From: Breznakiella homolactica | Lineage (GTDB): Bacteria > Spirochaetota > Spirochaetia > Treponematales > Breznakiellaceae | DNA: 64,000 bases | Assembly: GCF_016616095.2 (NCBI RefSeq) | Contig: NZ_CP067089.2 | Coordinates: 3,162,001 to 3,226,000 of the forward strand | Reading direction: 5' to 3' | Part shown: one piece after another, positions 5,121 through 64,000 of the stretch | How the letters are laid out: each line of letters opens with the position of its first letter | Position numbering within the stretch: position 1 is the first letter of the stretch | Program-made: the position numbers and the translations under genes | The notes under the pieces: model-generated | Database searches by the model: none | What the model was told of the DNA's origin: nothing | What the model saw: the letters and a program-made list of their open reading frames with translations, nothing else

Positions 5121-5123
5121 ATA

Positions 5124-5219: not shown

Positions 5220-6017
5220 ATGATGAGAAAATTTGGATTAATTGCGGTTATTGCGGTTGTTGCAGCCGCTGCGGCTGGTGCCCAGACTTTACAGGACGGT
5301 TTTTTCTTTGCCCAGGATGACCGGTTTTCTTCCGACGGATGGCGGAATCAGGTTGTTCTTGAGGTAAAAGGCGGCAAGATTACTTCCGCCAACTGGAACG
5401 GCACAAACATCATTCCGGGTGTTCAGGACCGGAAAGGCTACGCCGCTTCCAACAGCGCGGCAGCCGATTGGGCTTCCCAGGCGCAGAAGGCCGAACAGTA
5501 TCTGGTGGGCAATCAGAATATCAACTTTAACCAGTATAATGACCAGGGTGTTACCACCGCCATCAGCGGTGTCACTATTCCGGTAAAACCCTTCTTTGAT
5601 CTGGTACGGAAAGCGGCTTCGTCCAACCCCGTGCCCAAGGGCATTTATAACAAGGACGGATGGTACTTCGGAATCGCCCCGGATTTCGATCCCTTCGGGA
5701 CCAAGGATACTGCCCTGATCACCGTGGTGAACGGAACCATTGTGGATGCCATCTGGAACGGCGTTTTCCGGGACGCCAATAAGAGCTCAAAGATTGTCGA
5801 GTCGAATTCCGGCCGCTACAACATGGTACGCCTCGGAAAGGCCCGCTCCGAATGGCACGTCCAGGCGGCGGTGGGCGGAGCGGCTCTGGTACGGGCCCAG
5901 GATCCCACCCGGATTCCCGTCAAGGCCGATAAGAAAACAGACGCGGTCAGCGGTGTTTCCATCATGATGAAGGACTTCCTTGATACCGCGAACCGGGCTC
6001 TCCAGCCTGCCCGCTAA
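5220..6017 (+). CDS. Secreted protein with two FMN-binding-domain-like repeats
   Basis: 265 residues from the ATG at 5220 (AGGAGG at 5204-5209; a second ATG follows directly). The start is a signal peptide (LIAVIAVVAAAAAGAQ). The mature part holds two related units. Each begins with DG[FW]-x-F and a strand ending in an I-x-[SD]-A-x-WNG turn (KITSANWNGTN and TIVDAIWNGVF), and each ends in an SGV[TS] motif (TTAISGVT near residue 115, TDAVSGVS near residue 247) before a helix. These resemble FMN_bind domains, where FMN is attached to Thr/Ser in D-x-x-SGA-[ST]. Likely a periplasmic electron-transfer or flavin-sensing protein. The first unit lacks the usual Asp. Confidence 0.7.
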   Translation: MMRKFGLIAVIAVVAAAAAGAQTLQDGFFFAQDDRFSSDGWRNQVVLEVKGGKITSANWNGTNIIPGVQDRKGYAASNSAAADWASQAQKAEQYLVGNQNINFNQYNDQGVTTAISGVTIPVKPFFDLVRKAASSNPVPKGIYNKDGWYFGIAPDFDPFGTKDTALITVVNGTIVDAIWNGVFRDANKSSKIVESNSGRYNMVRLGKARSEWHVQAAVGGAALVRAQDPTRIPVKADKKTDAVSGVSIMMKDFLDTANRALQPAR

Positions 6018-6035
6018 AGGATCGATCACAGCATA

Positions 6036-6066
6036 AAAAAGGGCTGTCCGGAAGGACAGCCCTTTT
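6036..6066. terminator. Bidirectional intrinsic terminator
   Basis: GGGCTGTCC (6041-6049) pairs perfectly with GGACAGCCC (6054-6062) over a four-base loop. A-tracts precede it and TTTT follows, so it can end transcription from both the plus-strand FMN-binding gene and the convergent LysM gene. Confidence 0.9.
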
Positions 6067-6088
6067 ATTTTGCCTGTCTGGATGCGGC

Positions 6089-6538
6089 TCAGAGAGAATC
6101 CGCGATTTCCAGCAGCTTCTGTTCCATCGCGGTATTTCCTTTTTTGTTATACACTCCCGCGATATCGCTGAAAAAGACCTTCATTTTTCCCCGGGCTTCG
6201 GGGTCGTCAAGGTTTTTCTGCAGATCCGGGATGGACAGTTTCATACCCGGCTCAATCAGGTCCGGATCAAGAACCACATCGCTGGAGGCCAGCATAATCA
6301 GCGGGAAATAGTATCCCTTGTCGGAGCCGTAATATTTTACGGTAATGGCGGAAAGGGTGTCCCCTTTGACCACTTCATAGGATTTTGCTCCATCGAGAAT
6401 AAGGCTCGACCGGTACCGGTTATATACTTTTTTAAATGCGGCGTTCGCGTCATCCTGGCTGAATTCCCCGCTGGTAGCGCAGGAAACCGCAAGAAGAACC
6501 GCGAACACGAGTGTTACAGCAGGTACAATTCTTTTCAT
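6089..6538 (-). CDS. LysM-domain lipoprotein
   Basis: 149 residues with AGGAGG before the ATG. The N-terminus is a lipoprotein signal with lipobox LAVSC at residues 16-20. A LysM domain begins near residue 54 (YEVVKGDTLSAITVKYYG) and ends near PGMKLSIP, which marks peptidoglycan binding. A charged helical tail follows. Probably tethered to the outer membrane or periplasmic face of the inner membrane and touching the cell wall. It stands alone, facing the FMN-binding gene across a shared terminator. Confidence 0.9.
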   Translation of the reverse strand: MKRIVPAVTLVFAVLLAVSCATSGEFSQDDANAAFKKVYNRYRSSLILDGAKSYEVVKGDTLSAITVKYYGSDKGYYFPLIMLASSDVVLDPDLIEPGMKLSIPDLQKNLDDPEARGKMKVFFSDIAGVYNKKGNTAMEQKLLEIADSL

Positions 6539-6614
6539 TCAAATCCTCCTAGAAAAAAGTATATCGCAGTGAAAAAAATTAATCCCGCTGAAAACAGTAC
6601 ATTATTTTAAATAA

Positions 6615-48077: not shown

Positions 48078-48179
48078 TCAGTCTTTCTGTTTTACGGTCT
48101 TGATCAGCTTTTTGATGCCGGCTTCAATACTGCAGATGTTCCGGTAGAATTTTCCGGGATGATGTCCAATTAAATTCCT
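48078..48179 (-). pseudogene. Possible truncated host gene at the tail-cluster boundary
   Basis: On the minus strand a frame ending in TGA at 48080-48078 reads IGHHPGKFYRNICSIEAG then IKKLIKTVKQKD, a natural-looking C-terminus without a start or ribosome-binding site. Its upstream part runs into the last gene of the phage cluster in another frame. It could be the tail of a host gene cut by integration. Weak evidence. Confidence 0.35.
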
Positions 48180-48640
48180 TAAAACGCGAAACCCCCGATC
48201 CAGCCCGCTGCCGCCAGGACGGTAGCGCCGATGGCCGCGGCCCGCCAGAAGTTACGGGACTTCTCCATATTCCGCAGGCCGTCCCCTAACTGCGTGATAG
48301 AGTTCTTCAAGGTCTTCAACTGATCCGAGGATTGTTCCAAGTCCGTCCTCAGCCCGTTCAATTCCGCCAGTGATGTTTCGAGACTGTTCGATAAGCTCAC
48401 GATTTTCAGATTGGAGTTCTCCAAGTTTTCCGTAAGCTGTACGGAGTTCATCTTCAAGGCTGCCAGCTCGGCGGAGAGCAGCTCCGTGGAGTTCCTCAAG
48501 CCGCTGATGGTCAGCGAGAAGCGCTGCAGTTCGCTCCCGGTAATCAGATACAGTTCTTCCCCATAGGAGCCAGCCGGCGAGCAGGCCAATGCCGAGGCCA
48601 GCAGCAGCACACAGCAGAATGGTTTTGTTTTCCCCCACAT
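48179..48640 (-). CDS. Spanin-like protein, u-spanin or o-spanin type
   Basis: 153 residues. The N-terminus has a signal with possible lipobox ALAC (residues 17-20). It is followed by a long heptad-rich region (about residues 40-120, rich in L, S, E, N) and a C-terminal membrane segment AAAIGATVLAAAGWIGGFAF. A lipoprotein N-terminus, coiled coil and C-terminal helix together are the design of unimolecular spanins, which fuse the two membranes at lysis. AAGGAGG lies four bases before the ATG. A second frame (48252-48638) covers most of the same DNA. Confidence 0.65.
   Translation of the reverse strand: MWGKTKPFCCVLLLASALACSPAGSYGEELYLITGSELQRFSLTISGLRNSTELLSAELAALKMNSVQLTENLENSNLKIVSLSNSLETSLAELNGLRTDLEQSSDQLKTLKNSITQLGDGLRNMEKSRNFWRAAAIGATVLAAAGWIGGFAF
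48252..48638 (-). CDS. i-spanin (Rz)-like protein encoded in an overlapping frame
   Basis: 128 residues if started at the GTG at 48638, which overlaps the ATG of the other frame (ATGTG) and uses the same AAGGAGG. The N-terminus is an anchor helix (ILLCAAAGLGIGLLAGWLLW) followed by charged heptads (ADHQRLEELHGAALRRAGSL, then LGELQSENRELIEQ). This is the layout of an inner-membrane spanin. Nested spanin genes in two frames are known from lambda Rz/Rz1. Either this frame or the other could be the main product, or both. Confidence 0.5.
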   Translation of the reverse strand: MGENKTILLCAAAGLGIGLLAGWLLWGRTVSDYRERTAALLADHQRLEELHGAALRRAGSLEDELRTAYGKLGELQSENRELIEQSRNITGGIERAEDGLGTILGSVEDLEELYHAVRGRPAEYGEVP

Positions 48641-48876
48641 TATTCCTCCTTATGCTCCCGGTTGGTGTGATCCAGTTCTTCCCGGTAGTATTTTCCCTTG
48701 AAGGCGTTGTCCGCCACATTGGTTCCCTGGTACCCGAGCCCCGCGGCGACAATGCCGCCCACGATTATGGGTCCGATAACTTTCGCGACCTCCGGAGAAA
48801 TGAACAGTGTAATAAGATACAGCCCGATGAGGGACCAAAAGGACGCCCAGAAGGCGGTCGATTTTTTTGTGACCAT
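48640..48876 (-). CDS. Holin-like small membrane protein
   Basis: 78 residues with two membrane segments (about residues 8-26 and 33-52) and a charged C-terminus (NREHKEE), the layout of a class II holin. GGAG precedes the ATG. Its stop overlaps the next start (TAATG), which couples it to the spanin-like genes. It would permeabilise the inner membrane and lies at the edge of the tail cluster. No endolysin gene is next to it. Confidence 0.65.
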   Translation of the reverse strand: MVTKKSTAFWASFWSLIGLYLITLFISPEVAKVIGPIIVGGIVAAGLGYQGTNVADNAFKGKYYREELDHTNREHKEE

Positions 48877-49001
48877 GGAATGGCTCCGGCAGCAGTGGGA
48901 TTGGGGAATAATCCCCGATGTAAAAAAGAAATGACGGCGCGGAAGGATGCCACACCGTAACTCAGTCCCTGCCCGGCTGACCCGGAACAGGGAGGATTAG
49001 T

Positions 49002-49730
49002 ATGTATCATTTTGAAATTGAATATGTACTAACAATAGTTAGGAAATGGGTCTTTAGGTACAGACAGCCTCTGGTTCAGATTACTGGAACAGCTTCTATA
49101 GAAGATTTACAATATATACCTTGCCGAGATCCTCCTCCTCCTTCTTTGATGGATAAATTTTTCCCAGGCTTATCTATTCTCCAGTATTCTCCGCTGAAGT
49201 CCCGTATATTTCTTCACAGCTCTTACGGAACCGGGCATTTCGGTTCCCGGAAAAAGGAGCAGGGAGACCCCATGCCTGAAACAAGACGGAACTGGATCAA
49301 TATACTGAACGCCTACAAAGAAAAACTTTCCGACACATGCTCTGTGGAGGTGCTTATCGGAGAACCCGCAGGGCCTTCCCAAAATCTGCAGGTAAATCTA
49401 ATCCCGATTCCCCATCCCGTAATTTCCGGTAACGGCCGGATCCGGCTTCGCCTTCGGGCCCTGCTGCAAAGCGGTATCCCCGGTGATGACACATCAATTT
49501 CACATTTGCTTGATACATCCCTCCTCCTCGCCGGGTGGTTCAGCGAAACCCAGGGAGGTATCCGCATCGCGGACAATCTATTTGCCGTCGCATACCACCA
49601 CCCTCTCCGGAATGATGATGAATCGTATGGTCCGGAGAATATCAATCTGTATAGTTACGACGAACGTTGGCTCGTCGAACTTGAATTTAATTATGAGGCC
49701 GCGGTCAATGCGGTCTCGGAAGGAGTCTAA
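49002..49730 (+). CDS. Tail completion/terminator-like phage protein
   Basis: The frame from 49002 gives 242 residues and has GGGAGGA directly upstream. A second start at 49272 (GGGAG upstream) gives 152 residues, which match better the size of a tail terminator. The domain from 49272 has a mixed pattern, CSVEVLIGEPAGPSQNLQVN, LLDTSLLLAGWFSETQGG and ERWLVELEFNYEAAVN. The N-terminal 90 residues look unusual and AT-rich. The position before the tail tube gene suggests a tail terminator role. Family is inferred from order. Confidence 0.55.
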   Translation: MYHFEIEYVLTIVRKWVFRYRQPLVQITGTASIEDLQYIPCRDPPPPSLMDKFFPGLSILQYSPLKSRIFLHSSYGTGHFGSRKKEQGDPMPETRRNWINILNAYKEKLSDTCSVEVLIGEPAGPSQNLQVNLIPIPHPVISGNGRIRLRLRALLQSGIPGDDTSISHLLDTSLLLAGWFSETQGGIRIADNLFAVAYHHPLRNDDESYGPENINLYSYDERWLVELEFNYEAAVNAVSEGV

Positions 49731-49733
49731 AAA

Positions 49734-50585
49734 ATGGATTTGACGAAAAGTCAGAACCCCAATTCCATGACCCTGGGTTCGGCGAAAATTGAAATCGCCC
49801 AGAAACCTGTGTCGATCATCAATGAGTCCGGTAAAAAGGGCTACCAGCTTGTAGGCCTCGAAGATCTCGGCCTTGCCAGGGGTATCAGCATTACCCCGGC
49901 AAATACCAAGATTGAAGTGGTCGCGGACAATGGAACCGTCCCCATGAAAGGGCAGACCGGCAAGAAGATTACCGTGGCTTTCTCCCTGCTGGAACGGCAC
50001 ATCCCTGTTCTCGCAAAGGTAATGGACGGTGTTGTTTCTGTTGCATACGAAGCCGGCGAACTTACCACGGTTACGGACAAACACCTGCCGGGCAGCGTGG
50101 AAAAGGACAGCCCCATTCCCTTGAGCAAATTCAACTACAACGGGAACGCTCCGGAAAATGTTGAGGTTGAGCAGGATTCCGTCCTGGCGGAAAACACCGA
50201 TTACCGGATCATTGAATATGCCGGTGCGTATTTTATTGTTCTTATTTCCGACAACTTCGACAGCGCAAAGGAACTCAAAATCAGTTACAAAGTTACCCCG
50301 GCGAAGAGCTATACCATGAGCCAGGGCGGTTCCGGTATTGCCAGGAACCTTGCCATGCGCCTGACCAACAAACGCCGGGCCGACGACGGCCGGATGATTT
50401 CCCGGACCTGGGAACTCCCCTACGGGTTCTGCGTATCCGACGATGTTATTACCCTCAAGTCAAACAACGACGCCGACAATGTGGCCGAAGTTCCCCTGAG
50501 CTTCGAATTCTCCCCCCATCCCGACATGGCCGACAATATGGACCTTGAAGCCATGAGCCTCATCCGGGAAATCCAGGAAGTCTAA
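49734..50585 (+). CDS. Phage major tail tube protein-like
   Basis: 283 residues, four bases after the previous stop. It has no membrane or signal segments. A beta-rich pattern (SAKIEIAQKPVSIINESGKKG, KKITVAFSLLERHIPVLAKVM) and the conserved order just before the chaperone pair and tape measure point to the tube subunit, as in siphophages. A central 60-residue insert resembles an Ig-like addition. No sheath gene is next to it, which suggests a non-contractile tail. Confidence 0.6.
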   Translation: MDLTKSQNPNSMTLGSAKIEIAQKPVSIINESGKKGYQLVGLEDLGLARGISITPANTKIEVVADNGTVPMKGQTGKKITVAFSLLERHIPVLAKVMDGVVSVAYEAGELTTVTDKHLPGSVEKDSPIPLSKFNYNGNAPENVEVEQDSVLAENTDYRIIEYAGAYFIVLISDNFDSAKELKISYKVTPAKSYTMSQGGSGIARNLAMRLTNKRRADDGRMISRTWELPYGFCVSDDVITLKSNNDADNVAEVPLSFEFSPHPDMADNMDLEAMSLIREIQEV

Positions 50586-50608
50586 AGAAAAGGAAAAGGA
50601 ACAGAACC

Positions 50609-51043
50609 ATGCAGACAGAAACCATAAATCTTGATGCCCTTAGGGCCCCGTCACGGAAAATCGTCTTTCTCGGCCGCGAATACGAACTTGGATACATTCC
50701 CTCCGGCGCCGCAATCCCCATGATCGAGTCCTACAATGAACTCCTTCAGAAGCAGACAAAAGCAGCGGGAGGTATGGATCTGGATTCATCCCTGCGGTAC
50801 GCCGAGGAAAACGCCAAAGAAGTTGTAGAAGATTCTATTGATTTTATTGCCCGGTTCTGTTCCTTTTTTTATCCTGATGTCACCCGTGACGAAATCTCCA
50901 GGGAAGCATCTAAGGAAATGGTGGACCAGTTCTTTATGGAAATCATTTCTTCCATTGTGCGGAATTCCGCCAGGGGAAACACCGGAGAATCCGGCGGAGA
51001 TTCCGGAGACTCAAAAAAAAACACGACTGGGCCGAGTCAATAG
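50609..51043 (+). CDS. Tail assembly chaperone, short form (gpG-like)
   Basis: 144 residues. A helical protein with EYELGYIPSGAAIPMIESYNELLQKQ, then EVVEDSIDFIARFCSFFYPDVT, and a glycine/serine-rich tail (GESGGDSGDSKKN). It ends just after a run of nine A residues (51013-51021). The next frame continues without a start codon to 51234, so this is the upstream part of a frameshift pair. Such proteins coat the tape measure during tail assembly. Confidence 0.75.
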   Translation: MQTETINLDALRAPSRKIVFLGREYELGYIPSGAAIPMIESYNELLQKQTKAAGGMDLDSSLRYAEENAKEVVEDSIDFIARFCSFFYPDVTRDEISREASKEMVDQFFMEIISSIVRNSARGNTGESGGDSGDSKKNTTGPSQ

Positions 51044-51234
51044 ACCGGCTCTGCATACTCTACGGAGTAACTGAAGACTATGTGCTCCGCCGCTGGGCCA
51101 TCGAAACAATAAACCGGAAACTGAAAAACGGTGTTTCCTTTGATCTTATGCGGCGGGGCATGCTTGCCGGCGGAGAAGAATCCGAAACGCTGACCAAGGA
51201 AAACGAAAAGGATTTGTACGGAGCGTATTTATAA
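50609..51234 (+). CDS. Tail assembly chaperone fusion by -1 frameshift (gpGT-like)
   Basis: The canonical slippery heptamer A-AAA-AAC (51016-51022) lies in phase within the short-form frame. A -1 slip continues as KKHDWAESIDRLCILYG and onward to TAA at 51232-51234, whose last base is the A of the tape measure ATG. The added 71 residues are helical (EDYVLRRWAIETINRKLKNGVS) and have no start of their own. This is the arrangement of lambda G/GT and many siphophages. Confidence 0.75.
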
Positions 51235-54200
51235 TGGCAGTAACAGCATATGAAGGTGTTTACAATATAGCAGGGGATCTCGGTGAATCAAACAAAGCGC
51301 TTGCTGAGTTCAGCACAAAAGCCGAAGCGGCGAACACATTGCTCGAAAATATTAAAACCTCATCATCCCTGGCGGCGACTGCGATTATTTCCCTGGGACT
51401 CGCGTTAGTACAATCAAAAGAAAAGCTGAATGAAATTGATAAAAGCCTCGGCAATGTAGACGACTCCGCCTCGGGCCTGGAAGACACCATCGGTGATCTG
51501 ACGAAGAAACTTGAAGCCCTGAAGAAAGCGGCCGACCAGTCGCAGAAGAGCCTTAGCAAATTAAAAGAAGGGATCGGCGATTCCAAGGACGAAACGAAAA
51601 GCTTTGGCGAAGTGATGGAAAAAGACGCGCTGCCTGCGGTAAAAGATTTTTTAAGTCCCGCCACAGCGCTTAAAGATGTTTTCGAAAAATTCGGCGCGGA
51701 CAGCAATCACCCCATAGTTGCTATGGGAAACATTGCGGAATCAACAATTAAAACAACCACAACAGTGGTAGGTTTTGTTTCAGCGCTTGGCAAAGCACGC
51801 AAAGCATTTCAAGCCCTAAAAGGTTTAGCAATAACAAACCCAGCAGGGCTCGCATTAGTAGCGGTTTCAACAGCGATTTCAGCTTTTATCTCTTTGAAAA
51901 AGACAATGGATGATTCAAAAAAAGCTCAAGAAGAATCAAGAAAAACAGTAATTAAAAATACAAATTCCATTGTTGATCATAAAATTGAAGCCCAAGCATT
52001 AGGCGAGCAATATCTCGTTTTAAATAATTCGGAAGACAATTTTGCCAAAGCGCTAATAGAGCAGCAAATTATCAGAAATAGGTTAAAGGAAATCTATCCT
52101 GAATTAACCACATCAATTATTGAACAAGCTGTAGCAGAAAACCAATTAGGTCAGGTTATAAAAAACGCTTCAGAAAATAAAGATAAAGAACAAGAAAAAA
52201 ATATTTCAGATCAGATAGAGGAATTAAATAAAGAAATAAAGAAAAGCGAGCGCTTAATAGTAACACATAAAAAGGATATAGTAACTATTTTGTCCGGATT
52301 AGGGGTAGAAGAAGAAACATTACTTTCAAATCCCGACCTAGTAGAAGAAATATTTGCATTAAATAATCAGAGTGAATCATTCGTCTTTATAAAAAACCTA
52401 TTACGTGATATTGAGACAGAAAACGCAAATATAATACAAAAAACCAATGATATATTAGATGCAAATAAGTCATTAGAGATATTAAAAGCACCTATAGATA
52501 ATAATTCTTCTGCCACCGATATTTCCCGCAAAGATCAATACGAAGCTTTAAACGCCGAATACGAAAAGAAATACGAATTCGCAAAAAAAGCCGGCGGTGA
52601 TTTGCTCAGTGTTGAACTTGAATGGCACCAGAAAAAACAAGCCCTGTTATTATCCTTTACCCACGAAGATGCCGAAGCGGCGGAAGCCAACGGCAAAAAT
52701 TATGGGGAAGCCCTGACCAATGCCCTTGAATCAAGTATTGCCGAAGGTTATGAAACCACAGAAACACTCCTGAAAGAATCCCAAGCCCGGATCGATATAC
52801 TTACGGGAAATTTTTCTATAAAAGACAATAGAACTCCGGCGGAAAAAGTTAATGCCATCGTAAAGCCTCTCGAAGGAAAAAAAGGCGTAACCACAGAAGA
52901 CGCGCTCCGGGGAATAAACGAAAAAGCCGCGCAGGCGGCGGCATCGGAACTGGACATTATCCAGGAGTTAACCGAAAGCTATAACGCGCTCAATGGAGTT
53001 AAAAAAGCTAATGAAGCAAAAGAAGATAAAGAAGATCTTACTTTAGGAAAAGAACTTCAAAAAATAGAGGAAAAACGAAAAGAAGCGGAGCTTCGGCGCG
53101 AAGAAGCGCTCGCTATGCAAACGGAAAGCGCGGCAAGGCTTTTAATCATTGAAAAAGAAAGGATCGCTCTCATAGCCGAAAACAGCATAGCGGCAATCGA
53201 AAAAGAAATCGCTTTGAAAAAGGAACTGGGAAAATTTGGCGACCGTGAAGAAGGCGCGCAGAATCTTTATGATGAATGGGACGCGATAAAAAAGGAAGAA
53301 GATGATTTAATTAACAGCAATCCGGGAAACCAGGAAGAAAAAAATCAACAGGAGGAGCGCCTATTAGAAATTCGAAAAAGAGAAAGGGAGATTGCCCAGG
53401 AACTTCTCGATTTCGATTCCGAAAGGAAAGCCCTTCAGGAAACCCAGGCGGCCATAATAAACAAGCAAACTTCTTTATTTGGCGAATACAACACGCTCGT
53501 TAATTCTGCGGTAGAAGGGGATAAAGAACGGGCCGAAGTTTTAAAACAAGAACTGGATGAATTTGAAACAAAAATAAATGACATTTCTGAAAAACTGTTT
53601 ATCGCTGAAAAGAAGCAGCTCGGCCAAACCACTGAAAATGCCATAGCGGCAATCGAACAGGAAATAGAAGCGAAAAAAGAATTAGGTTTGTTCGGCGATG
53701 ATAAAAAGGAAGCAGAAAAAAATGCCCTGCTGGAAAAACAGGCGGCCTTAAAAGCAAAGCAAAATGCCCTGCTCTCGGAATATAACTCGCTCATGGCATC
53801 CGGTACGGAAGAAGATGTAGAACGCGCGGAAATATTAAAAGAAGAAATTAAGGAACTTAAAACCGCGATTGATGAGGTCGGGAAAGAATTAGACTCAACA
53901 CCAGAATGGTTAAAAAATATTGAAAAGTTCTTCTCGGAAGTGGCTAAATACGGCGGTTATATTGCTGACGTCTTCAACAACATTAAGGATACCGTTTTTG
54001 CGTTCATGGACAATAACCAGGAACGGGCAGCCCAGGATAATGCGAATAAATTACGGGAAATCGAAGAAAACAAAAACAGAGACCTCGCCGCATTCGATGA
54101 AGAACTGAATACCCTCCGGGAAGAAAACCGCCTTGAAAACGAACGCCTTGAAGAAGAATACAAGGAACGGATGTACCAGGCCCAGATAGCCGAGTACGAC

Positions 54201-55022
54201 CGGAACATCACTGAGCTTGAAGAAGCCTTTGCCTCGGAAACAAATATAGAAAAACTCCGGGAGCTTGAAAAACAGCTGGAAGCGGAAAAAAAGAAAAAGA
54301 AAGAAGCGGAAGATCAGAAGAAAAAGGAAGAAGCGGAAAAGAAAAAGGCTGAAGAAGATTTAAAAAAAGAAAATGAACTTTTGAACGCCAAGAATGAGGC
54401 GGAATATCAATATACGGTTCAGAGGATTAATGTTGAAAATGAAGCAGGCAAGGCCGAAGCTGACGCTGCCATTGTAAAATCCCGATGGGAAAAGGCCTCA
54501 ACCATTTTGACCCTTACGCTAAAAGCGGCGGAATATACAGTAAGGGCTATCGGGGACGCTGCCGGCTTTAACTTTGTAGGTGCTGCCATGCATACCGCAG
54601 CTGCGGTTGCCGCCGGCGTCCAGGCAGGTTTTGCCGCATCCGCCCCAGAGCCTCCTCAGTTTACGCCGCAGCCCATTCCATCACCGCCGAAAAAACTTGC
54701 CGAAGGCGGTATCTTCATGCCCAGTATCGGCGGGACCTCTATCCTTATGTCCTCCGGAGCCAGGGCGGTCGTTGCGGAAGCCGGAGTGCCCGAACTCTAC
54801 CTACCGATCACTCCGGAAAACATCGATTCCTTGTTCAGGAACACCAAACATCAGCAGATAAATCAAGGCGGATTCACCTATGCCCCGGTGTATGAACTCA
54901 ATTTTTCCAGCAATGAAGGTGACACCAAAGAAGACGTATTCTCTTATCTTAAAAATGAAGTATCCAGGGATCTTTTGGAACTGGTTGAAGACGCGAAAAG
55001 ACAATGGTATGTAGGAGCCTGA
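51234..55022 (+). CDS. Tape measure protein
   Basis: 1262 residues. Long helical and coiled-coil tracts dominate (LTKKLEALKKAADQSQKSL near residue 85, a lysine/glutamate-rich run near 1020-1050). A hydrophobic stretch with ALVAVSTAISAFISLKK is near residue 215. Two related units (AENSIAAIEKEIALKKELG at about 53176 and TENAIAAIEQEIEAKKELG at about 53630) show an internal duplication of ~450 bp. The middle (about 51.9-52.5 kb) is AT-rich. Its length sets the tail length; by the usual ratio of 1.5 angstrom per residue it implies a tail near 190 nm. Confidence 0.85.
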   Translation: MAVTAYEGVYNIAGDLGESNKALAEFSTKAEAANTLLENIKTSSSLAATAIISLGLALVQSKEKLNEIDKSLGNVDDSASGLEDTIGDLTKKLEALKKAADQSQKSLSKLKEGIGDSKDETKSFGEVMEKDALPAVKDFLSPATALKDVFEKFGADSNHPIVAMGNIAESTIKTTTTVVGFVSALGKARKAFQALKGLAITNPAGLALVAVSTAISAFISLKKTMDDSKKAQEESRKTVIKNTNSIVDHKIEAQALGEQYLVLNNSEDNFAKALIEQQIIRNRLKEIYPELTTSIIEQAVAENQLGQVIKNASENKDKEQEKNISDQIEELNKEIKKSERLIVTHKKDIVTILSGLGVEEETLLSNPDLVEEIFALNNQSESFVFIKNLLRDIETENANIIQKTNDILDANKSLEILKAPIDNNSSATDISRKDQYEALNAEYEKKYEFAKKAGGDLLSVELEWHQKKQALLLSFTHEDAEAAEANGKNYGEALTNALESSIAEGYETTETLLKESQARIDILTGNFSIKDNRTPAEKVNAIVKPLEGKKGVTTEDALRGINEKAAQAAASELDIIQELTESYNALNGVKKANEAKEDKEDLTLGKELQKIEEKRKEAELRREEALAMQTESAARLLIIEKERIALIAENSIAAIEKEIALKKELGKFGDREEGAQNLYDEWDAIKKEEDDLINSNPGNQEEKNQQEERLLEIRKREREIAQELLDFDSERKALQETQAAIINKQTSLFGEYNTLVNSAVEGDKERAEVLKQELDEFETKINDISEKLFIAEKKQLGQTTENAIAAIEQEIEAKKELGLFGDDKKEAEKNALLEKQAALKAKQNALLSEYNSLMASGTEEDVERAEILKEEIKELKTAIDEVGKELDSTPEWLKNIEKFFSEVAKYGGYIADVFNNIKDTVFAFMDNNQERAAQDNANKLREIEENKNRDLAAFDEELNTLREENRLENERLEEEYKERMYQAQIAEYDRNITELEEAFASETNIEKLRELEKQLEAEKKKKKEAEDQKKKEEAEKKKAEEDLKKENELLNAKNEAEYQYTVQRINVENEAGKAEADAAIVKSRWEKASTILTLTLKAAEYTVRAIGDAAGFNFVGAAMHTAAAVAAGVQAGFAASAPEPPQFTPQPIPSPPKKLAEGGIFMPSIGGTSILMSSGARAVVAEAGVPELYLPITPENIDSLFRNTKHQQINQGGFTYAPVYELNFSSNEGDTKEDVFSYLKNEVSRDLLELVEDAKRQWYVGA

Positions 55023-55026
55023 TCAA

Positions 55027-55434
55027 ATGACATTACAGGAATTTTATGACGAGGGAAAATATACTGATTTTGTATTAATTGACGGGAATGTGTTTGTCCT
55101 GCCCCAGGGATTTAAGCTGAGCAGAAATCCGGCGGAAAAGGTAAATCTGGTAACCATGGCAAACGGCCGCAAGCGAAAGGACATCATGCGCCGCTGGAAC
55201 AAATACAGCTTTGCCTATGAAATACTTCTTGAAACGGATTTTCAGAAACTGATGACCATTGTCGAAAAAGCCGCGGACGCTTCTTCAATTACATTGTATC
55301 TGAAAAAGCAGCACCCCCTTCCCGAAGAACCGTATGAAAAAGCCGACATCGACATCATACAACCCCCGAAAACTTCATACAAAAACCGGGGGCAAATATA
55401 CATTCACAACAGCGTAAATTTTGAAATGGAGTGA
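55027..55434 (+). CDS. Conserved tail protein (135 aa)
   Basis: Starts four bases after the tape measure stop. A soluble mixed alpha/beta protein with no membrane segment. Features are DFVLIDGNVFVLPQGFKLS at the start, a central KRKDIMRRWNKYSFAYEILL and a C-terminal RGQIYIHNSVNFEME. Its place after the tape measure is that of a distal tail or hub-adaptor protein. I do not recognise the family; the role is inferred from order. Confidence 0.55.
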   Translation: MTLQEFYDEGKYTDFVLIDGNVFVLPQGFKLSRNPAEKVNLVTMANGRKRKDIMRRWNKYSFAYEILLETDFQKLMTIVEKAADASSITLYLKKQHPLPEEPYEKADIDIIQPPKTSYKNRGQIYIHNSVNFEME

Positions 55435-55437
55435 GCC

Positions 55438-56082
55438 ATGGAACAACGTTTAATTGAAATGATTAATGGCATAAAGGATTTTGTGCCGGAAAAAATAGGC
55501 GAAGATGAACCCTTTGAAGCAAACCGCTGGAACACTCTGGTTGATTACCTCAAAAGGAACAACGAAATTCTTGAAAAGATGGAAACCGTTGTACCACCGG
55601 TGGGCTTTATTTACATCCGTCTTCCCGGGGCAAAAACCCCATATGAATTGTGGGATATGAAACCGGAACAATGGGATAATATTTCCCGGCATTTCCCCAA
55701 TGTTTTTTTCCGGGTAGAGGATAGCGGGAATGATAAAAATACCACTAGACCTTACGCATCAGTTTTTAAAGAAAGCGTATCCCTTGATAGTGAAACCCCT
55801 CAAACTGATTTGACCTATAACGAAGGTGACGGAGGAACCGGCGGCGGGCAGATGGATGCGATCCGTGATATCACGGGTAATTTTTTTGCCCAGGGAACGG
55901 AAAATGCCGAAGACGGGGGAGGTGCCTTCAAGACTGAATCCACTGGCAGAAATGATAAAGGATATTCATCAGGGCGCCAATATCCCTATGAAAGAAGTTT
56001 TATGGCATCCCGGGTCGTCCCGGTAGCCAATGAAAACCGCCCTAAAAATATCACCGTTCAAATCTGGATGAGGATATCATGA
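55438..56082 (+). CDS. Tail protein with collar/fibre-type C-terminus
   Basis: 214 residues. The N-terminal part is helical (EDEPFEANRWNTLVDYLKRN). The C-terminus carries a recurrent fibre motif: DAIRDITGNFF near residue 140 and ASRVVPVANENRPKNITVQIW at the end, matching the end of the protein at 60410 (DAIRNITGQF, ASRVVPVAHENR). It probably is a structural or host-contact component of the tail tip. Confidence 0.6.
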   Translation: MEQRLIEMINGIKDFVPEKIGEDEPFEANRWNTLVDYLKRNNEILEKMETVVPPVGFIYIRLPGAKTPYELWDMKPEQWDNISRHFPNVFFRVEDSGNDKNTTRPYASVFKESVSLDSETPQTDLTYNEGDGGTGGGQMDAIRDITGNFFAQGTENAEDGGGAFKTESTGRNDKGYSSGRQYPYERSFMASRVVPVANENRPKNITVQIWMRIS

Positions 56083-56134
56083 TTAACCGGCAGGGAGGTA
56101 AATCCCCACTTACCATGTTCCGGGGGATGCAAAT

Positions 56135-58474
56135 ATGATCAGAACCAATGCGGAAATAACCGGGATCATTACCGGGGATAGCCGGATATTCGGTGCGGAC
56201 GCAACTTTCAATTACCTAGCCTTAAAGCATGATCCTTCGGTACAGATTTACGCCAATAACGCGGTTGACGGTTCCATCCCGGACCAGATTATTGAACCTA
56301 TGGTTCCGTATAGCCATGACCGGCTTTTTACCGGCTCGGACATCCGGAACAGGGTATTCCCCTGGTCAATAAACATCCACCGGGGACGCGGCTGGCAGCA
56401 GAAAAGGACTTTTTATAAAAACAGAATTGGTTATATTGGAAATAAAGCTGATGAAGATGGAAATGTGGATGACACCATACAAGTCCGTTTTGCCCCGCGG
56501 AATATTTCTCTGATTACCATACAAACTGACTGTGATAGAATCATCCATGACGCGGTCATTACTAGCTTTAACGGGGATATCAAGACAAATGAATATGAAC
56601 TCAAGGATAACCAGTCGGATACATTGTTAATTCCCTGGAAAGGGAGAAAGGCTTCTATCATTTCTATAACAATAACCAAAGGTACCCCTGGCAAACGGAT
56701 CTGGCTTATTACATTTTCTCCGACTAAGGTTGAACACTATACCGAAGACGATATTATCGAAATAAAACATGAAATAAAAAAAGCCCAAAATAAAGAAGGC
56801 TCCATCGGCAGATTATATATCCAAAGTCTTTCCATGTCGTTGTTCAACAACAAAGAACGCCCCTTCGATTTCATGAACACGAAAAGCGATCTGTACAACT
56901 CCCTCCGGAAGGGTGTGGAGATTTCCGTGGATCTTCCGCTGAAGGGAACTTCATTCAAAAAGGAGCTGGGGGTATTTTATACCACATCCTGGGAAGTCTC
57001 GGAGGATACCGCCACCGCAGCGGTGAAAGCTGTCGATTACCTGGGAACTATAAAAGACAACGAGATCAACGAGCTAATCATTGACAATACCAATGTGATG
57101 GACTGTTTCTTAACGCTGGCAAACCGGCTGGGATTATTTGAAAATAAAATAGACCAGTCTCTCGAGAAGATCGCCCTGGCTAAATATGCTCTCCAGGGAA
57201 AAGCCGGCGATCTGCTGAACAACCTTTGTGAGTTAAGCCAATCCGTCTGTTTCATGAATGCCCGGGGGAACGGCATTACCGTCCGGAAAATTCCCAGCAT
57301 CCGGGGAACTTCACGTTACCCCCTGCGGTATCTCACCTCCGGCGATTACAGCAAGTCCACAAAAAATAAAATGGGGGATGTTAATCCCAATATCATCCGG
57401 ACCGAATATACCATTGAGGAATATCAAACCAATGAAGTGATTGTGGAAAAAGAAGTGTTTATGTACAAGGATTTTTCCGGCACACCATTCCCTGAAGAAT
57501 ACAAAAACAAAGGTATTTTTGAAAGGCCCGTTGGGGCCGGAACAGAACCAAGTGTATTGAAGATATTTAAGATACCGGAACACTATATCCATACAGAAAT
57601 TACTGACCCATTTACCCCCGGTACACTTGAGTATGAAATCACTGAATATGACGGAGAATATCCGGAAGAAGAGAAGCGGAATACCGTAGAAGTGAGAGTT
57701 TGGATTTTTAATAAACCCGAAGAAGAGGATGCCCAGTTTACCATTGCGGTGATTGGAAAATCTTCCTATGAGGATATGTTGTTGGAAAACTTTACTCAGA
57801 AAATAGAAAAACGCCCGAATGATTATGTCGATCCGGACCTTTCCAAAGAGGATCCCTTTGAACGGAATAAAGCAAACAAACCCCAGGAATTTGAAGTAAA
57901 ACTATCTGGTAAATATTCCATATCATATATCATTCCGGGAAACCTCAAGAAGGAATTATTCGATTTTGTTATAACCAAAACCGGAACCGGATGTCTGGTT
58001 AAGGTATGGAATTACAGTGTCCTGGAACAGGAATTCGCCGTCAGTATTTACGGCAAACGGATTATCGAGTCCAAAGACAACCGGGTTATCCTGCTGAAGG
58101 ACGACGATGCCATTGCCCTGGAAGGAGAAATCACTAAATCCATCAACCTGAAAGGGATTGCCTCGGACGAAATTGCCAACCAGTTGGCCCGTTCAACCGC
58201 CAGATATTACAAGACATTCAAAAATTCCTTTTCGGTTGATCCCTGGGCGGATCCTCGATTTGAAATAAATGACCTCATCGCTCTGGAATCTCCCCGGGGA
58301 TACGGTTATACCCAGGGAATAATAGAAGAAGTTAATACCACCTATAAAGGATTTTTAGAGCAGAAAATAAAGCTGCTGGAATCAAATAAACACAACCGGG
58401 ATTGCCGTCTTTTCGGTGAACTCGTTCTCAATGACCGGCCCGTAATGCCGGCAATCCAGGAGGGCTATGTATGA
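56135..58474 (+). CDS. Large baseplate/tail hub-like protein
   Basis: 779 residues. Mostly beta-type sequence with short inserts; segments include EISVDLPLKGTSFKKELGVFY and VKAVDYLGTIKDNEINELII, and the last third contains two repeated turns around KRIIESKDNRVILLKDDDA. Lysine- and aspartate-rich loops suggest an extended surface protein. The place between the hub-adaptor and the fibre genes fits a tail tip or baseplate protein. No family is certain. Confidence 0.55.
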   Translation: MIRTNAEITGIITGDSRIFGADATFNYLALKHDPSVQIYANNAVDGSIPDQIIEPMVPYSHDRLFTGSDIRNRVFPWSINIHRGRGWQQKRTFYKNRIGYIGNKADEDGNVDDTIQVRFAPRNISLITIQTDCDRIIHDAVITSFNGDIKTNEYELKDNQSDTLLIPWKGRKASIISITITKGTPGKRIWLITFSPTKVEHYTEDDIIEIKHEIKKAQNKEGSIGRLYIQSLSMSLFNNKERPFDFMNTKSDLYNSLRKGVEISVDLPLKGTSFKKELGVFYTTSWEVSEDTATAAVKAVDYLGTIKDNEINELIIDNTNVMDCFLTLANRLGLFENKIDQSLEKIALAKYALQGKAGDLLNNLCELSQSVCFMNARGNGITVRKIPSIRGTSRYPLRYLTSGDYSKSTKNKMGDVNPNIIRTEYTIEEYQTNEVIVEKEVFMYKDFSGTPFPEEYKNKGIFERPVGAGTEPSVLKIFKIPEHYIHTEITDPFTPGTLEYEITEYDGEYPEEEKRNTVEVRVWIFNKPEEEDAQFTIAVIGKSSYEDMLLENFTQKIEKRPNDYVDPDLSKEDPFERNKANKPQEFEVKLSGKYSISYIIPGNLKKELFDFVITKTGTGCLVKVWNYSVLEQEFAVSIYGKRIIESKDNRVILLKDDDAIALEGEITKSINLKGIASDEIANQLARSTARYYKTFKNSFSVDPWADPRFEINDLIALESPRGYGYTQGIIEEVNTTYKGFLEQKIKLLESNKHNRDCRLFGELVLNDRPVMPAIQEGYV

Positions 58475-60423
58475 GTACCAGAATTCTTTTCGATGCTGAT
58501 CCGGATAAAAAAAATCCCGAAAATCTTACAAGCGAAGAATTATTCGATATAAAGAAGGATGCGGCAATCTCGTTGACGCATGATATATTTTACGCTGATG
58601 GTTTGACTGTATACGATGTGGAAAAAAAGTCTTTCCTTAAGCCGGAAGTCGATTATGGTTTTGTGTTCCAGGATACCATTGCAACCGAACAGTCTGCCTG
58701 GCCGTGTTACAGAAACCTTGAGTTCTACAATAATTATAATTTGCTCCGGGTTGATTACCGTGTGTACGGAGATATTTTAACCGCGGCGGATTTTAATAAC
58801 ATTCAGAAGACTACCACCGAAACAAATATCCTGGTGACGGAATTGGAAAAAATCCAATCGCACCACATCAGCAGTAAAGCTGCACATCAGGCAACTATTG
58901 ATGCTGAACCCGACCGTATAGTTTTAAGGAACAGCCGGGGAACCTTTAATGTTTCCGAACCCAAGAGTGATTATGAACCGTCAATTAAAAAAGAAATGGA
59001 CCAGGAAACATGGGAAAGGGAAAATACAGACCAGAACCTTCAGGAACAGATTAACACTATCCGGTATTCTGTTTTTGCAAATGTTATTCCCGGTGAAACA
59101 ACCGAAGAGGAATTTAAAATCCTGTATCTGAGTTTTGACGGTAAAGCCTATGTGGCCAGCAACACCGAAAAAAGCCATAAGTCCGTTATCGGAATTACTC
59201 TCGAGCCCATTTCATTCAATGGTAGTACCGATGGCGAAATCGAAGTTATCAAATCCGGTCAGCTCATTGGATTTTCCGGCTTAATTCCCGGCGCGTCCTA
59301 TTACCTGGGGACTAACGGCGGCCTGGCACTGCGGGAACATATTCCATCCACCAGCTTCAAAGTTTTTATTGGCGTAGCCAGTTCGGATGATACGCTGGAA
59401 GTCAATATCGGCAATGTCGAAACGGACCCCATATCAGGGTCGGGCAATGTTGAGTTGGGGCTGGAAAGCCTTGAGGTAACCCAGATCTATTCACGGGATA
59501 AACTGTTTATCACCAATGATACTGTCCAGGGCCGGCGGCAAAAGAAACTCGACATAGGTTTTTCCTATCTTTCGGAGCATTCCCAGGTGGCCCATTTTGA
59601 TACCGACGAATTTGACCAGTACGGCGAACCGATGTTTACTGTCACCGGTGAACGGATTCTGGCAAACGAGCAGCAGGGAATTCCCATTACGCTAAACAAT
59701 TCGGTTCCCTATGTGACCGACGCGAAGGCCTTGTATGGAAAGTTCCGCTTGCAGAAGACTTTCCCCGCATCGGATCTCTTTGCCATTGACTTCTGGATGA
59801 ATTACAAACAGAATGCGGACCAGGTTCTTTTTACATTGTCCATGGGAAGTGATATTTTCCAATTGGAAGTAACCGAAAAAGAACCTCCGTATAATACAGA
59901 AAAACCGGATGGAATTCCGTACAATTCGATCCCCACCGACGGGATTTGGTATAACACCCCGGAACCCGGCAGAACCCGATTAACACGGTTCCACAACAAT
60001 ATCTGGACCAGCCAGGATATTATCCTCGATGGCGGAGACGGCGGATTTGAACAGGATCAATGGTACCATATCGGACTATGCAAAAACAACGATACCCTCT
60101 TTATATATATCAACCAGAATGTGATGCAGTTTCCCGTACAGTCGGGAAATCAGGAAGCTATACACATTGATGTGAATTCCACACTAGGAGATATTGCCAT
60201 TGATGAATTCATGGTGGATCCCGTCACCGCGGAAGACTTTGAGAGATTTAAAACCATAACCGTAAAACGCATTCCCTGGGCAAGCCTGGATTACAAGGAA
60301 AAATGGACTGTGTTTAATGTGGACGACCCTTCTTTCTTTAAAACTAATATTTTCCAAAGTGCGGATTTCAAAAACGCGGTCATGAACATTTTAAGGGAGG
60401 AAAATCTCAATGGCGATCATTGA
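58471..60423 (+). CDS. Tail fibre/tip protein with LamG-like C-terminal domain
   Basis: 650 residues, starting inside the stop of the previous gene (ATGA). The N-terminal part has a helical linker (DILTAADFNNIQKTTTETNI). A central beta-rich region is followed by about 200 residues from ALYGKFRLQKTFPASDLFAI onward that resemble a LamG/concanavalin-type jelly roll, ending in DQWYHIGLCKNNDTLFIYIN. Such domains bind sugars. Its 3' end overlaps the next gene by 14 bp. Confidence 0.55.
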   Translation: MSTRILFDADPDKKNPENLTSEELFDIKKDAAISLTHDIFYADGLTVYDVEKKSFLKPEVDYGFVFQDTIATEQSAWPCYRNLEFYNNYNLLRVDYRVYGDILTAADFNNIQKTTTETNILVTELEKIQSHHISSKAAHQATIDAEPDRIVLRNSRGTFNVSEPKSDYEPSIKKEMDQETWERENTDQNLQEQINTIRYSVFANVIPGETTEEEFKILYLSFDGKAYVASNTEKSHKSVIGITLEPISFNGSTDGEIEVIKSGQLIGFSGLIPGASYYLGTNGGLALREHIPSTSFKVFIGVASSDDTLEVNIGNVETDPISGSGNVELGLESLEVTQIYSRDKLFITNDTVQGRRQKKLDIGFSYLSEHSQVAHFDTDEFDQYGEPMFTVTGERILANEQQGIPITLNNSVPYVTDAKALYGKFRLQKTFPASDLFAIDFWMNYKQNADQVLFTLSMGSDIFQLEVTEKEPPYNTEKPDGIPYNSIPTDGIWYNTPEPGRTRLTRFHNNIWTSQDIILDGGDGGFEQDQWYHIGLCKNNDTLFIYINQNVMQFPVQSGNQEAIHIDVNSTLGDIAIDEFMVDPVTAEDFERFKTITVKRIPWASLDYKEKWTVFNVDDPSFFKTNIFQSADFKNAVMNILREENLNGDH

Positions 60424-61300
60424 TTTATCACTAAATCATTTCATTATCCCGAATCTTCCGACATACCCAACACCGTTTGGGACGAAGCAGTCAGCCGGAG
60501 GAGAGGGCCTTACAACCATGGAAGTGCACCACAACATTGCCATGGTTTTTCAGCGGCAGCGGCCTGCGGTGGTCTCGGAAAACTCCGAAACCACCGTAAT
60601 TGAGGCGGATGCCACCGTTGTCCTGGATGGCCCGGTTTCGGAATTGCGGTTGGGGTCCGGGGCATTCACCGGCTGCAGACTGGTGCTTATCAACAACACA
60701 AACCACAGTGTTTCGCTTCTCGGCAATGACCAGGTTACGGAGATTAAGCCCTATAAAATGCTTGAACTGTTCTGGTTTGGTTCAAGATCAACCTGGGCAT
60801 CGATGTATGATTTTGAAAACCAAGTAACCGTTCCCTTAGGTACCGTAATCACCTGTTCCGACAGAAAAAACAAAAGCGGATACCTCTATGCCAATGGTTC
60901 AGCATTCTTTCCGGAGCTATATCCGGAATTCTACGAACTCTGGAAAACTTACAAATTGGGTTATGACCACTTCGGAATGCCGCGCCTTCCGGATCTGAGA
61001 GGTGTTGTTTTCAGGATGGCTGACGATGGGATTGGATTCTCAACCCAGCAGAAGGTATTCCAGTTTGAACCTGATGCAATCAGGAATATTACCGGACAAT
61101 TTGACGCGCAGGGGTATGATGCCTGGAAGTCGGACTACGGAGCATTTGTGGTTGCAGCATATGGATACGTTGACGGCGGCACATCCGGTTCCGGGAGTTT
61201 TGCCCGGGACAGAAGGTTTGACGCGTCCCGGGTTGTCCCGGTGGCCCATGAAAACCGGGTTAAGAGCAAAGCGGTGTATCCGTTTATCAAAGTTTTATAA
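60410..61300 (+). CDS. Tail fibre with shared N-terminus and phage collar domain (1)
   Basis: 296 residues, AGGGAGG before the ATG. The N-terminal ~120 residues (MAIIDLSLNHFIIPNLP, then HHNIAMVFQRQRPAVVSENS) are shared with the genes at 62465 and 63487. The C-terminal part is a phage tail-collar domain (LPDLRGVVFRMADDG) and ends in DAIRNITGQF and ASRVVPVAHENR. It is likely an adhesin displayed at the tail tip; the shared N-terminus would dock it on the particle. Confidence 0.7.
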   Translation: MAIIDLSLNHFIIPNLPTYPTPFGTKQSAGGEGLTTMEVHHNIAMVFQRQRPAVVSENSETTVIEADATVVLDGPVSELRLGSGAFTGCRLVLINNTNHSVSLLGNDQVTEIKPYKMLELFWFGSRSTWASMYDFENQVTVPLGTVITCSDRKNKSGYLYANGSAFFPELYPEFYELWKTYKLGYDHFGMPRLPDLRGVVFRMADDGIGFSTQQKVFQFEPDAIRNITGQFDAQGYDAWKSDYGAFVVAAYGYVDGGTSGSGSFARDRRFDASRVVPVAHENRVKSKAVYPFIKVL

Positions 61301-61314
61301 TTAAGGAGAACATA

Positions 61315-62454
61315 ATGTATTCAAACGAACAGGTAATCGAGGCGGTTAATAATCTTTCAGAAAAATACAATACCCTTTACGAGGATTTCGTCCGGCTTCA
61401 CACTAAGGCAAATGTGGGACAGCCCCTATATTCAAATGCCTATATTCCCTACGAAGGCCACACGGACCACAGTTTTCCCGAAGGACAAACCATACAGACG
61501 TTTATCAATGATAATATTCAGAAAATCGGTACCGCAGCCGCCGCAAATTACGGGGCCTGGAACAACAGAAATATGATCACCCTGTCCGCCATGACCGCCG
61601 TCCCCAATATTGATACGGCGCCGGTGAATTACGTTGTTCTCAAAATACAGACCGAGTATCTCGATAAAAACAAGGATGGGACGTTTTTCCTGCTCCACGC
61701 TGAGGCGGACAGCCATAGCCATGGACAGGTATGGGTATGGACCGCTGATCCCGTTTCAAAAACCCTAAAAAAATGCCTGGGGTGCAGCTCCGGGGATAAG
61801 GCAAGCGGGGAAGGACAGAGTTTTCAGAAAGGGCCCGACAATGGCCAGGCTTTAATACTGCGGTACCACCATTGGATCTGTTTTAATTTTGAAAAAGAGG
61901 ATTTGATTACCGATGATGAAGGTTTCGCGTATTTCGCCATTGCGTGCACCAATGCGCTGACCTATATCAGCGGCTGGGCAATCGCGAACCGCAATACGGA
62001 GTTCTTCTGGACGCCGGTAATTAATCCTGCTTCAAAGCGTTACAGCAACATCGGCGCAATAACATATGAAAACAGCAACTACGCCGGCGTAGGCTTATCC
62101 CATCAGGCCCCCGCGACAACCCAGCAATATTATATTCCATATAATAAATCCCGGGAGTTGTATCTTGTTTTTATTGATAACACGATAATGCACAAACCAA
62201 CCGCAACAATCGAAAATCCCAATTGGGGAGGAGAAGCGCCGGAAATATTAATCAGGAACAGTGTGGGAAATTTTTCCAGCCTGATCACTTATAATGGGCA
62301 GCCCTATGTTTTCAAATATTTTAAGCTGACACAGGACTTTGTTGAAAATAACACAGTGGTAAAACAGGGATTAAAGTTGCTTGAAATCAATCTGAAAATT
62401 CTCAAATCAGAAAGGGTCTTTCATTTTTCAGGTATTTATACGGAAAATGCATAA
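61315..62454 (+). CDS. Tail tip protein of unknown family (379 aa)
   Basis: Preceded by AAGGAG. No family recognised. It is rich in aromatic and turn residues, with segments such as LLHAEADSHSHGQVWVWTAD, WAIANRNTEFFWTPVINPAS and GVGLSHQAPATTQQYYIPY. A histidine-rich stretch (HAEADSHSHG) might bind a metal. It sits between two fibre paralogues, so it may form part of the host-binding tip or its assembly. Confidence 0.5.
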   Translation: MYSNEQVIEAVNNLSEKYNTLYEDFVRLHTKANVGQPLYSNAYIPYEGHTDHSFPEGQTIQTFINDNIQKIGTAAAANYGAWNNRNMITLSAMTAVPNIDTAPVNYVVLKIQTEYLDKNKDGTFFLLHAEADSHSHGQVWVWTADPVSKTLKKCLGCSSGDKASGEGQSFQKGPDNGQALILRYHHWICFNFEKEDLITDDEGFAYFAIACTNALTYISGWAIANRNTEFFWTPVINPASKRYSNIGAITYENSNYAGVGLSHQAPATTQQYYIPYNKSRELYLVFIDNTIMHKPTATIENPNWGGEAPEILIRNSVGNFSSLITYNGQPYVFKYFKLTQDFVENNTVVKQGLKLLEINLKILKSERVFHFSGIYTENA

Positions 62455-62464
62455 GGAACACACT

Positions 62465-63439
62465 ATGGCAGTAATAGATTTAACGTTACGTAATTTTTCT
62501 ATTCCCAATTTTCCTTCATTAATCCCACCCTTCGGGACAAAAAAACCCGAAGAAGGCGAAGGCCTTTCTTCCATAGAAACCCACCGCAATATTGCCATGG
62601 GGTTCCAGCGGCAGCGGCCGGTGACGATTTCGGAAAACTCCGAAACAACGGCTGTTGAAGCGGACGCGACCATTGTTCTGGCCGGCGCCGTATCGGAACT
62701 GGCTTTAGGTAACGGCGCGTTCATCGGCTGCAGAGTAATCCTCATAAACAAGTCCGGACACAAAGTAAAACTGATTGGCGGTGATTCTGCACAGTATATA
62801 TATGCCAATAAAACCCTGGAATTGTTCTGGATGGAATCATCCTGGGAAAGCCTGATACATAGCATTGTCGGCAGCCATGTGTTCACCGCTATATCCGACC
62901 CGGTGGAATTATCCCGGCGGCGCTGGCTCCTGCTTGACGGCCGGGTCCTTCCCATTCTTCCTGATTACGATGAACTGGTGGATGTGATCTGGCGCGGCGT
63001 GGAGAGCAACGGAACGGTGGAAACCTATTACAGATGCGACGAAGACGGAACACGGAACGCCGGAGGTGGTTATTTTAAATTCCCTGACGGCCGGGGAAGG
63101 GTTATACGCTCCGCCGGCCGGGGTGATCCGGTGCCGGATAAGGACGGATTGCCAATTGATATCGCAAATGTTTTGTATGACGGAAAAGACGTGGGAGATC
63201 GTATTGATGATGGGATACGAAATATAAAGGCAGGGTTCGGCGGATTGCCTACCATGCATGTGTCGGCAGCTTCCCTTGTAAGCGGGTCAGGAACATTTTC
63301 ACTTGGGGGTGGTGTGGGATATTCCGGTGTGGATCCCTTTCTATGGGGATTTTTTGGAATTGATACTTCGTTAACATTACCAACCTCTCCCTGGAACCGT
63401 GACGCCTCCTTATCGGCGAATATGTGTTTGGTGTATTAA
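62465..63439 (+). CDS. Tail fibre with shared N-terminus and phage collar domain (2)
   Basis: 324 residues from the ATG at 62465 (AAGGA upstream); an earlier in-frame ATG at 62447 overlaps the previous gene. The N-terminus matches 60410 and 63487. The central part is a tail-collar domain (YFKFPDGRGRVIRSAGRGD). The last ~70 residues are glycine/serine-rich (SLVSGSGTFSLGGGVGYSG) and unlike the other copies. Confidence 0.7.
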   Translation: MAVIDLTLRNFSIPNFPSLIPPFGTKKPEEGEGLSSIETHRNIAMGFQRQRPVTISENSETTAVEADATIVLAGAVSELALGNGAFIGCRVILINKSGHKVKLIGGDSAQYIYANKTLELFWMESSWESLIHSIVGSHVFTAISDPVELSRRRWLLLDGRVLPILPDYDELVDVIWRGVESNGTVETYYRCDEDGTRNAGGGYFKFPDGRGRVIRSAGRGDPVPDKDGLPIDIANVLYDGKDVGDRIDDGIRNIKAGFGGLPTMHVSAASLVSGSGTFSLGGGVGYSGVDPFLWGFFGIDTSLTLPTSPWNRDASLSANMCLVY

Positions 63440-63486
63440 TCCGGCAGGGATATCCTGATTCTTATTTTTATTTTATCGAGGTATAT

Positions 63487-64000
63487 ATGGCTATTATTGA
63501 CTTAACCCTTAACAATTTTCTCATTCCGAATTTTCCTTCCCTCAGTCCGTCTTTTGGTACGAAAAAAACAAAAAACGATGAAGGGCTGTCCTCGGTTGAA
63601 ATTCACCATAACATCGCCATGGCATTCCAGCGCCAGCGGCCTGTGGTGGTTTCAGAGAATTCAGAAACCACCGAGATCGGCGCTGACGCAACCCTTGTTT
63701 TTAACGGAACCGTATCGGAAGTATCCCTAGGCTCAGGGACGTTTATGGGCTGCAGGCTGATATTGATTAACAACACCGGACACAAAGTAACAGTACACAG
63801 CAGCGATGAAATAAAATACATCTACCGGGATACAATGACGGAACTCTTCTGGTATGGATCATGGGTATCCCTGGTAAAAACAAATGTCGGCAATATTGTC
63901 CATACCTCGATTTCCGATGAGGCCGAGCTTGCCCGGCGGCGGTATTTGAAGCTGGATGGAAAATGTATTCCTGTTTCCGATTATGAAGAACTGGTGGACA
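63487..64000 (+). CDS. Tail fibre with shared N-terminus (3), cut by window edge
   Basis: The frame is open to the end of the window (171 codons). It follows GAGG six bases before the ATG. It repeats the shared N-terminus (MAIIDLTLNNFLIPNFP, then QRQRPVVVSENSETTEIG). The collar-domain start (LARRRYLKLDGKCIPVSDY) is just beginning at the edge. It is a third member of the fibre array. Confidence 0.7.
   Translation, partial: MAIIDLTLNNFLIPNFPSLSPSFGTKKTKNDEGLSSVEIHHNIAMAFQRQRPVVVSENSETTEIGADATLVFNGTVSEVSLGSGTFMGCRLILINNTGHKVTVHSSDEIKYIYRDTMTELFWYGSWVSLVKTNVGNIVHTSISDEAELARRRYLKLDGKCIPVSDYEELVD

Follow-up and report, generated by a model that had tools for sequence, protein, structure and literature searches.

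A headless siphophage-type tail operon in Breznakiella homolactica, a candidate non-contractile tailocin of Mu-like ancestry

The F-type pyocins of Pseudomonas aeruginosa are encoded by a headless non-contractile tail operon with lysis genes, and host genes lie on both sides. Listeria monocins are flexible, TP901-1-derived tailocins that consist of a complete siphophage tail module without head genes, and their loci keep an endolysin and regulators. A locus in the spirochaete Breznakiella homolactica resembles both systems in part: as in the F-type pyocins, a headless non-contractile tail operon stands by lysis-like genes with host genes on both sides (a likeness of layout only), and as in the monocins a complete siphophage tail module is kept without head genes. 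It differs from the F-type pyocins in having neither a PrtN/PrtR-type regulator nor an endolysin and in its Mu-like rather than lambda-like ancestry, and from the monocins in ancestry and host. Text searches of a library of open-access papers for tailocins together with spirochetes or Treponema yielded passing mentions only.

The window analysed here is a stretch of 64,000 nucleotides (positions 3162001–3226000) of the B. homolactica genome, a single contig of 4.65 Mb. An unbroken tail operon on its plus strand runs from 49,272 to 64,431 and crosses the window end, the last gene stopping at contig position 3226431, 431 bases beyond the window. It begins with the terminator and tube genes, continues through the chaperone pair, the tape measure and two small tip proteins to the hub, and ends with the fibre base and four genes of the fibre region. 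All of these genes are open reading frames, most of them preceded by a ribosome-binding site, and codon-use analysis finds the coding signal intact in each tail gene; across ~15 kb no gene is broken, and none is cut off at an edge. The features are listed below, with identities given, unless stated otherwise, to the corresponding genes of a Mu-like prophage at 2.27–2.30 Mb of the related genome G037.

48182..48640, minus strand, 153-aa unimolecular-spanin-like protein (topology; positive codon use, GC3 0.76; weak PHROG match to Rz-like spanin, E 0.01)
48255..48638, minus strand, alternative frame fully within the spanin-like gene, of Rz-like layout (open frame; neutral codon score; weak PHROG match to Rz-like spanin, E 0.03)
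48643..48876, minus strand, small holin-like protein, 78 aa, with two hydrophobic stretches (hydropathy, host-like codon use; no family match)
49272..49730, plus strand, putative tail terminator, 152 aa (39% to the G037 gene in the same place, E 5e-27; function assigned by position)
49734..50585, plus strand, major tail tube protein with Ig-like insert, 283 aa (PHROG 807 'major tail protein with Ig-like domain', E 2e-7; 46%, E 7e-83)
50609..51043, plus strand, tail assembly chaperone, short form, 144 aa (35%, E 3e-31; sub-threshold Pfam match to Phage_TAC_19)
51010..51234, plus strand, second chaperone frame via a -1 frameshift at an A-run (38–42% to the second frame of G037)
51234..55022, plus strand, tape measure, 1262 aa (41% across the last 460 residues to the 1238-aa G037 protein, E 4e-62; PHROG tape measure, E 2e-4)
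55027..55434, plus strand, small distal-tail protein, 135 aa, Dit-like by position (32%, E 3e-16)
55438..56082, plus strand, tip/fibre protein, 214 aa, with collar-type C-terminus (28%, E 9e-20; PHROG 523 tail collar fibre, E 6e-7)
56135..58474, plus strand, tail hub, 779 aa (39% over its full length, E 5e-177; 36–39% to all relatives; weak PHROG match to minor tail protein)
58471..60423, plus strand, chimeric fibre base, 650 aa (N-terminus 30%; C-terminus 38% to genomes G576 and G592, E 2e-69)
60410..61300, plus strand, fibre 1, 296 aa, with collar domain (PHROG 1858 tail fibre, E 6e-18)
61315..62454, plus strand, putative accessory protein between fibres, 379 aa (position; weak similarity, 26% over 146 aa, to a protein downstream of the G519 fibre base)
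62465..63439, plus strand, fibre 2, 324 aa, a paralogue of fibre 1 (59% to fibre 1 across the first 133 residues)
63487..64000, continuing to 64,431 past the window, plus strand, fibre 3, 314 aa (52% to fibre 2)

The terminator start is placed at 49,272 rather than at the longer-ORF start of 49,002. Pfam and PHROG searches gave no sheath or contractile-baseplate match among the proteins of the unit, and the tube belongs to PHROG 807; the tail is of the siphophage type and non-contractile. PDB profile searches returned chance matches only, and AlphaFold2 models of the tube and hub are of low confidence (pLDDT 48 and 44). The slip site of the chaperone pair, an A-run followed by ACGACTGGG, is common to the window and G037, and the downstream -1 frame is conserved, as sequence and translation at the two loci show.

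The tube matches one of 59 related genomes, G037, and a profile search across 393 genomes of the phylum brings in G320 as a strong match, together with some weak ones. Both G037 and G320 are Treponema-type genomes and belong to the host's order. One IMG/VR contig, L011 (IMGVR_UViG_2529292987_000001), carries the same phage as G037. Neither tube nor hub has a relative among 50,697 phage records, and hub scans of GTDB contigs found none. The G037, L011 and G320 elements are complete or near-complete Mu-like prophages with genes for MuA (Mu-transpos_C, DDE_2), MuB, a LexA-like repressor, protease, capsid E, Mu Gp27, Terminase_6C, portal and amidase (domains tested in G037), none of which was found at the B. 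homolactica locus. Genome G320 holds four related prophage copies at 97–99% identity, and the two with matchable ends terminate in TGT...ACA and are flanked by 5-bp target duplications (GTCCA and AACGG), which mark this as a transposing phage of ~34 kb. The window has counterparts of all eight tail genes of the complete relatives, in unchanged order and of similar length, without any stop or frameshift except the conserved chaperone slip; the tail module is syntenic one to one from the terminator to the hub and the N-terminus of the fibre base, at 28–46% identity, and the locus also shares the frameshift site and the divergent lysis side. A preliminary description made from the sequence had judged the tail order from terminator to fibres to be intact, and the synteny with the complete G037 prophage bears this out, with similarity well above what chance would give (tube E 7e-83, hub E 5e-177, tape measure C-terminal half E 4e-62). 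That description did not name the ancestor, which is a Mu-like transposable siphophage.

On a contig from genome G406 (L081, 118–15815), the genes for a Mu-like repressor, MuA and MuB lead straight into those for tape measure, hub and fibre, and the contig carries no head genes. This may be another head-deleted Mu-like derivative, or a misassembly.

Homology to the relatives begins at the terminator, the first tail gene, and ends inside the fibre base, and the left edge is without broken fragments. The PF05069 gene that adjoins the terminator in the relatives is gone. As had been noted from the letters, the unit contains no recognisable gene for an integrase, repressor, capsid, portal, terminase or sheath. 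It had been suggested that the right boundary lay outside the window, where head genes would have spoken against a headless unit; the boundary is at 64,431, a LacI-type regulator starts 66 bases after the last tail gene and is followed by genes for a sugar-binding protein, two permeases, a class II aldolase and a PfkB kinase (a sugar ABC transporter region), and a 40 kb extension to the right holds host genes only, with no head, packaging or integrase genes. The left flank carries enolase-superfamily, RraA-like and hydrolase genes. No significant match to, or remnant of, the relatives' head, packaging, transposase, repressor and lysis proteins was found in the 104 kb of the window plus 40 kb, and no TGT..ACA pair with a 5-bp duplication is present at the locus edges. 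The flanking LacI gene did not lead to an empty site in relatives: it has too many paralogues and no orthologue above 34%.

Head genes could in principle lie elsewhere in the chromosome, either in a split prophage or as parts of a gene transfer agent, and spirochaetes are known to have such agents, for example VSH-1 of Brachyspira. Against this, neither capsid E nor Terminase_6C was found anywhere in the single-contig genome, while both family searches were positive in control genomes, and no relative of the G037-type terminase or of MuA was found genome-wide; the capsid and terminase searches covered only the types that the relatives use. The Mu portal search gave no match in any genome, controls included, and is uninformative. 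We consider a gene transfer agent or split prophage unlikely, as the capsid and terminase it calls for were not found in the relatives' families.

The two minus-strand genes that diverge from the operon had been described as a holin/spanin cassette. Their topology agrees with this and the codon use of both is host-like, but in databases they gave only weak PHROG hits (E 0.01–0.03) and no sequence relatives, and they are not similar to the relatives' lysis genes; both assignments are predictions from topology. The 153-aa protein has an N-terminal signal or lipoprotein-like segment, a coiled coil and a C-terminal hydrophobic segment, and its gene starts behind an AAGGAGG site in an overlap with the holin-like stop (TAATG). 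The frame inside it has an Rz-like layout, with an N-terminal hydrophobic segment and a charged helical region; codon use favours the outer frame, and the inner one is perhaps not used. The starts of these two spanin-like frames lie two bases apart, and if both were translated this would be an unusually complete spanin-pair overlap. The 78-aa holin-like gene may or may not belong to the tail unit.

The unit encodes no endolysin, and nothing in the 104 kb around the locus significantly matches the amidase of the relatives. No regulator or SOS-type control was found at the locus, the nearest regulator being the LacI of the sugar operon. Promoter and terminator scans of the locus gave nothing above shuffled sequence, and Rfam and tRNA searches there found none. 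A short palindrome, CTAACaataGTTAG, lies at 49031–49044, where the lysis-like genes and the tail operon diverge, and is a possible operator.

The fibre base is a chimera, residues 6–196 being like the Mu-like relatives and residues 327–650 like other treponeme tails. The latter segment matches the C-termini of other hub and fibre-base proteins in the Treponematales, where it is accompanied by a fibre gene that shares the 133-residue N-terminus of the fibres in the window. Tails with this cassette include Mu-like siphophages having capsid and MuA genes (G262 and G587, with partial contigs in G592 and G665) as well as clusters in G514 that carry Baseplate_J, and its occurrence on several tail types shows that the receptor-binding cassette is exchangeable and moves between tail machines in the Treponematales. 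The single fibre of the Mu-like siphoprophages lacks the cassette found here. In the window the fibre gene is present in three copies with divergent C-termini, and in the common N-terminus dN is ~0.3 with dS saturated, which marks the paralogues as old copies kept under long constraint; the duplication may be older than the loss of the head.

A self-contained tail module whose receptor-binding cassette is mobile between tails might also serve as a satellite or moron cassette that completes the heads of another phage. The locus keeps no connector or tail-completion gene, however, the PF05069 gene having gone, and it has no integrase, repressor or replication gene; we regard such a role as highly improbable.

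Two nearly identical prophages (L009, 4775–5353; L011, 15653–16234) have tip proteins whose last 60 residues are wholly different between conserved borders, apparently a cassette-swapped receptor tip. Reverse transcriptases adjoin the same fibre family in L087 of G514 (3778–6587, RVT_1 E 1e-21), together with an FGE-sulfatase-type protein, and in L075 (5435–6484), and similar putative genes lie beside it in L084 (G392), L088 and L077. They resemble diversity-generating retroelements that target the tail adhesins of treponemes. L087 and L084, from the host's own family, have tail clusters with tail tube initiator proteins, plus Baseplate_J in the former and an amidase in the latter; no heads are seen on these short contigs, and the clusters are possible contractile tailocins.

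A tailocin or a partial prophage had been proposed for this locus at the outset. The headless state on both sides and the non-contractile siphophage tail hold, but the choice between the two only leans to a tailocin. The lean comes from the intact genes, the clean edge of the module, and the fibres that have been kept and multiplied. A complete tail set is present, with no head, packaging or transposition genes nearby and no sheath, while a cell-wall hydrolase among the lysis genes and a dedicated regulator are missing; of a Mu-like transposable phage, the locus has neither MuA/MuB nor TGT..ACA ends with a 5-bp duplication. Alternatively, a Mu-like siphoprophage could have lost its left and middle parts by a recent deletion, leaving a cryptic remnant without function whose tail genes have so far escaped decay. 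The endolysin, the regulators and both phage ends are missing, whereas relatives have TGT..ACA ends; none of the other sampled genomes has the headless form, and none of those from the host's family has the tail type; and the G406 contig indicates that such deletions occur. The G+C of the tail genes (0.43–0.53, against ~0.54 for the host) is not yet host-like and is consistent with a fairly recent arrival. A remnant is harder to reconcile with ~15 kb free of broken genes or partial edge genes and with the constraint on the fibre paralogues. With no endolysin, no regulator and no second headless genome, we give the remnant a substantial chance, though below even. That the locus is a non-contractile siphophage-type tailocin derived from a Mu-like phage seems to us slightly more likely than not. 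The fuller proposal, a functional, domesticated tailocin of this origin in a spirochaete, with a receptor-binding cassette that has multiplied and is exchanged among quite different tail machines of the same order, is plausible at slightly less than an even chance.

If the locus does encode a tailocin, the tail module would have been retained in the chromosome after loss of the head, packaging, replication and transposition genes. The operon would be switched on in part of the population, and tubes would polymerise around the 1262-residue tape measure to a length of ~190–220 nm and be capped by the terminator. Release would need the divergent holin/spanin-like genes and a cell-wall hydrolase encoded elsewhere, since the phage endolysin is missing. 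The fibres would then attach to the envelope of related bacteria, and the cell would be injured by the tail tip.

Such a tailocin would join the known non-contractile tailocins with a new ancestry and would not be a new class; a Mu-like siphophage origin, if true, adds an independent route to these particles. The headless tails could then serve as a weapon against related bacteria and offer agents made of protein alone for spirochaetes, a group difficult to grow and manipulate, and the shared fibre cassette would give a handle on the envelope structures that these bacteria use for mutual recognition.
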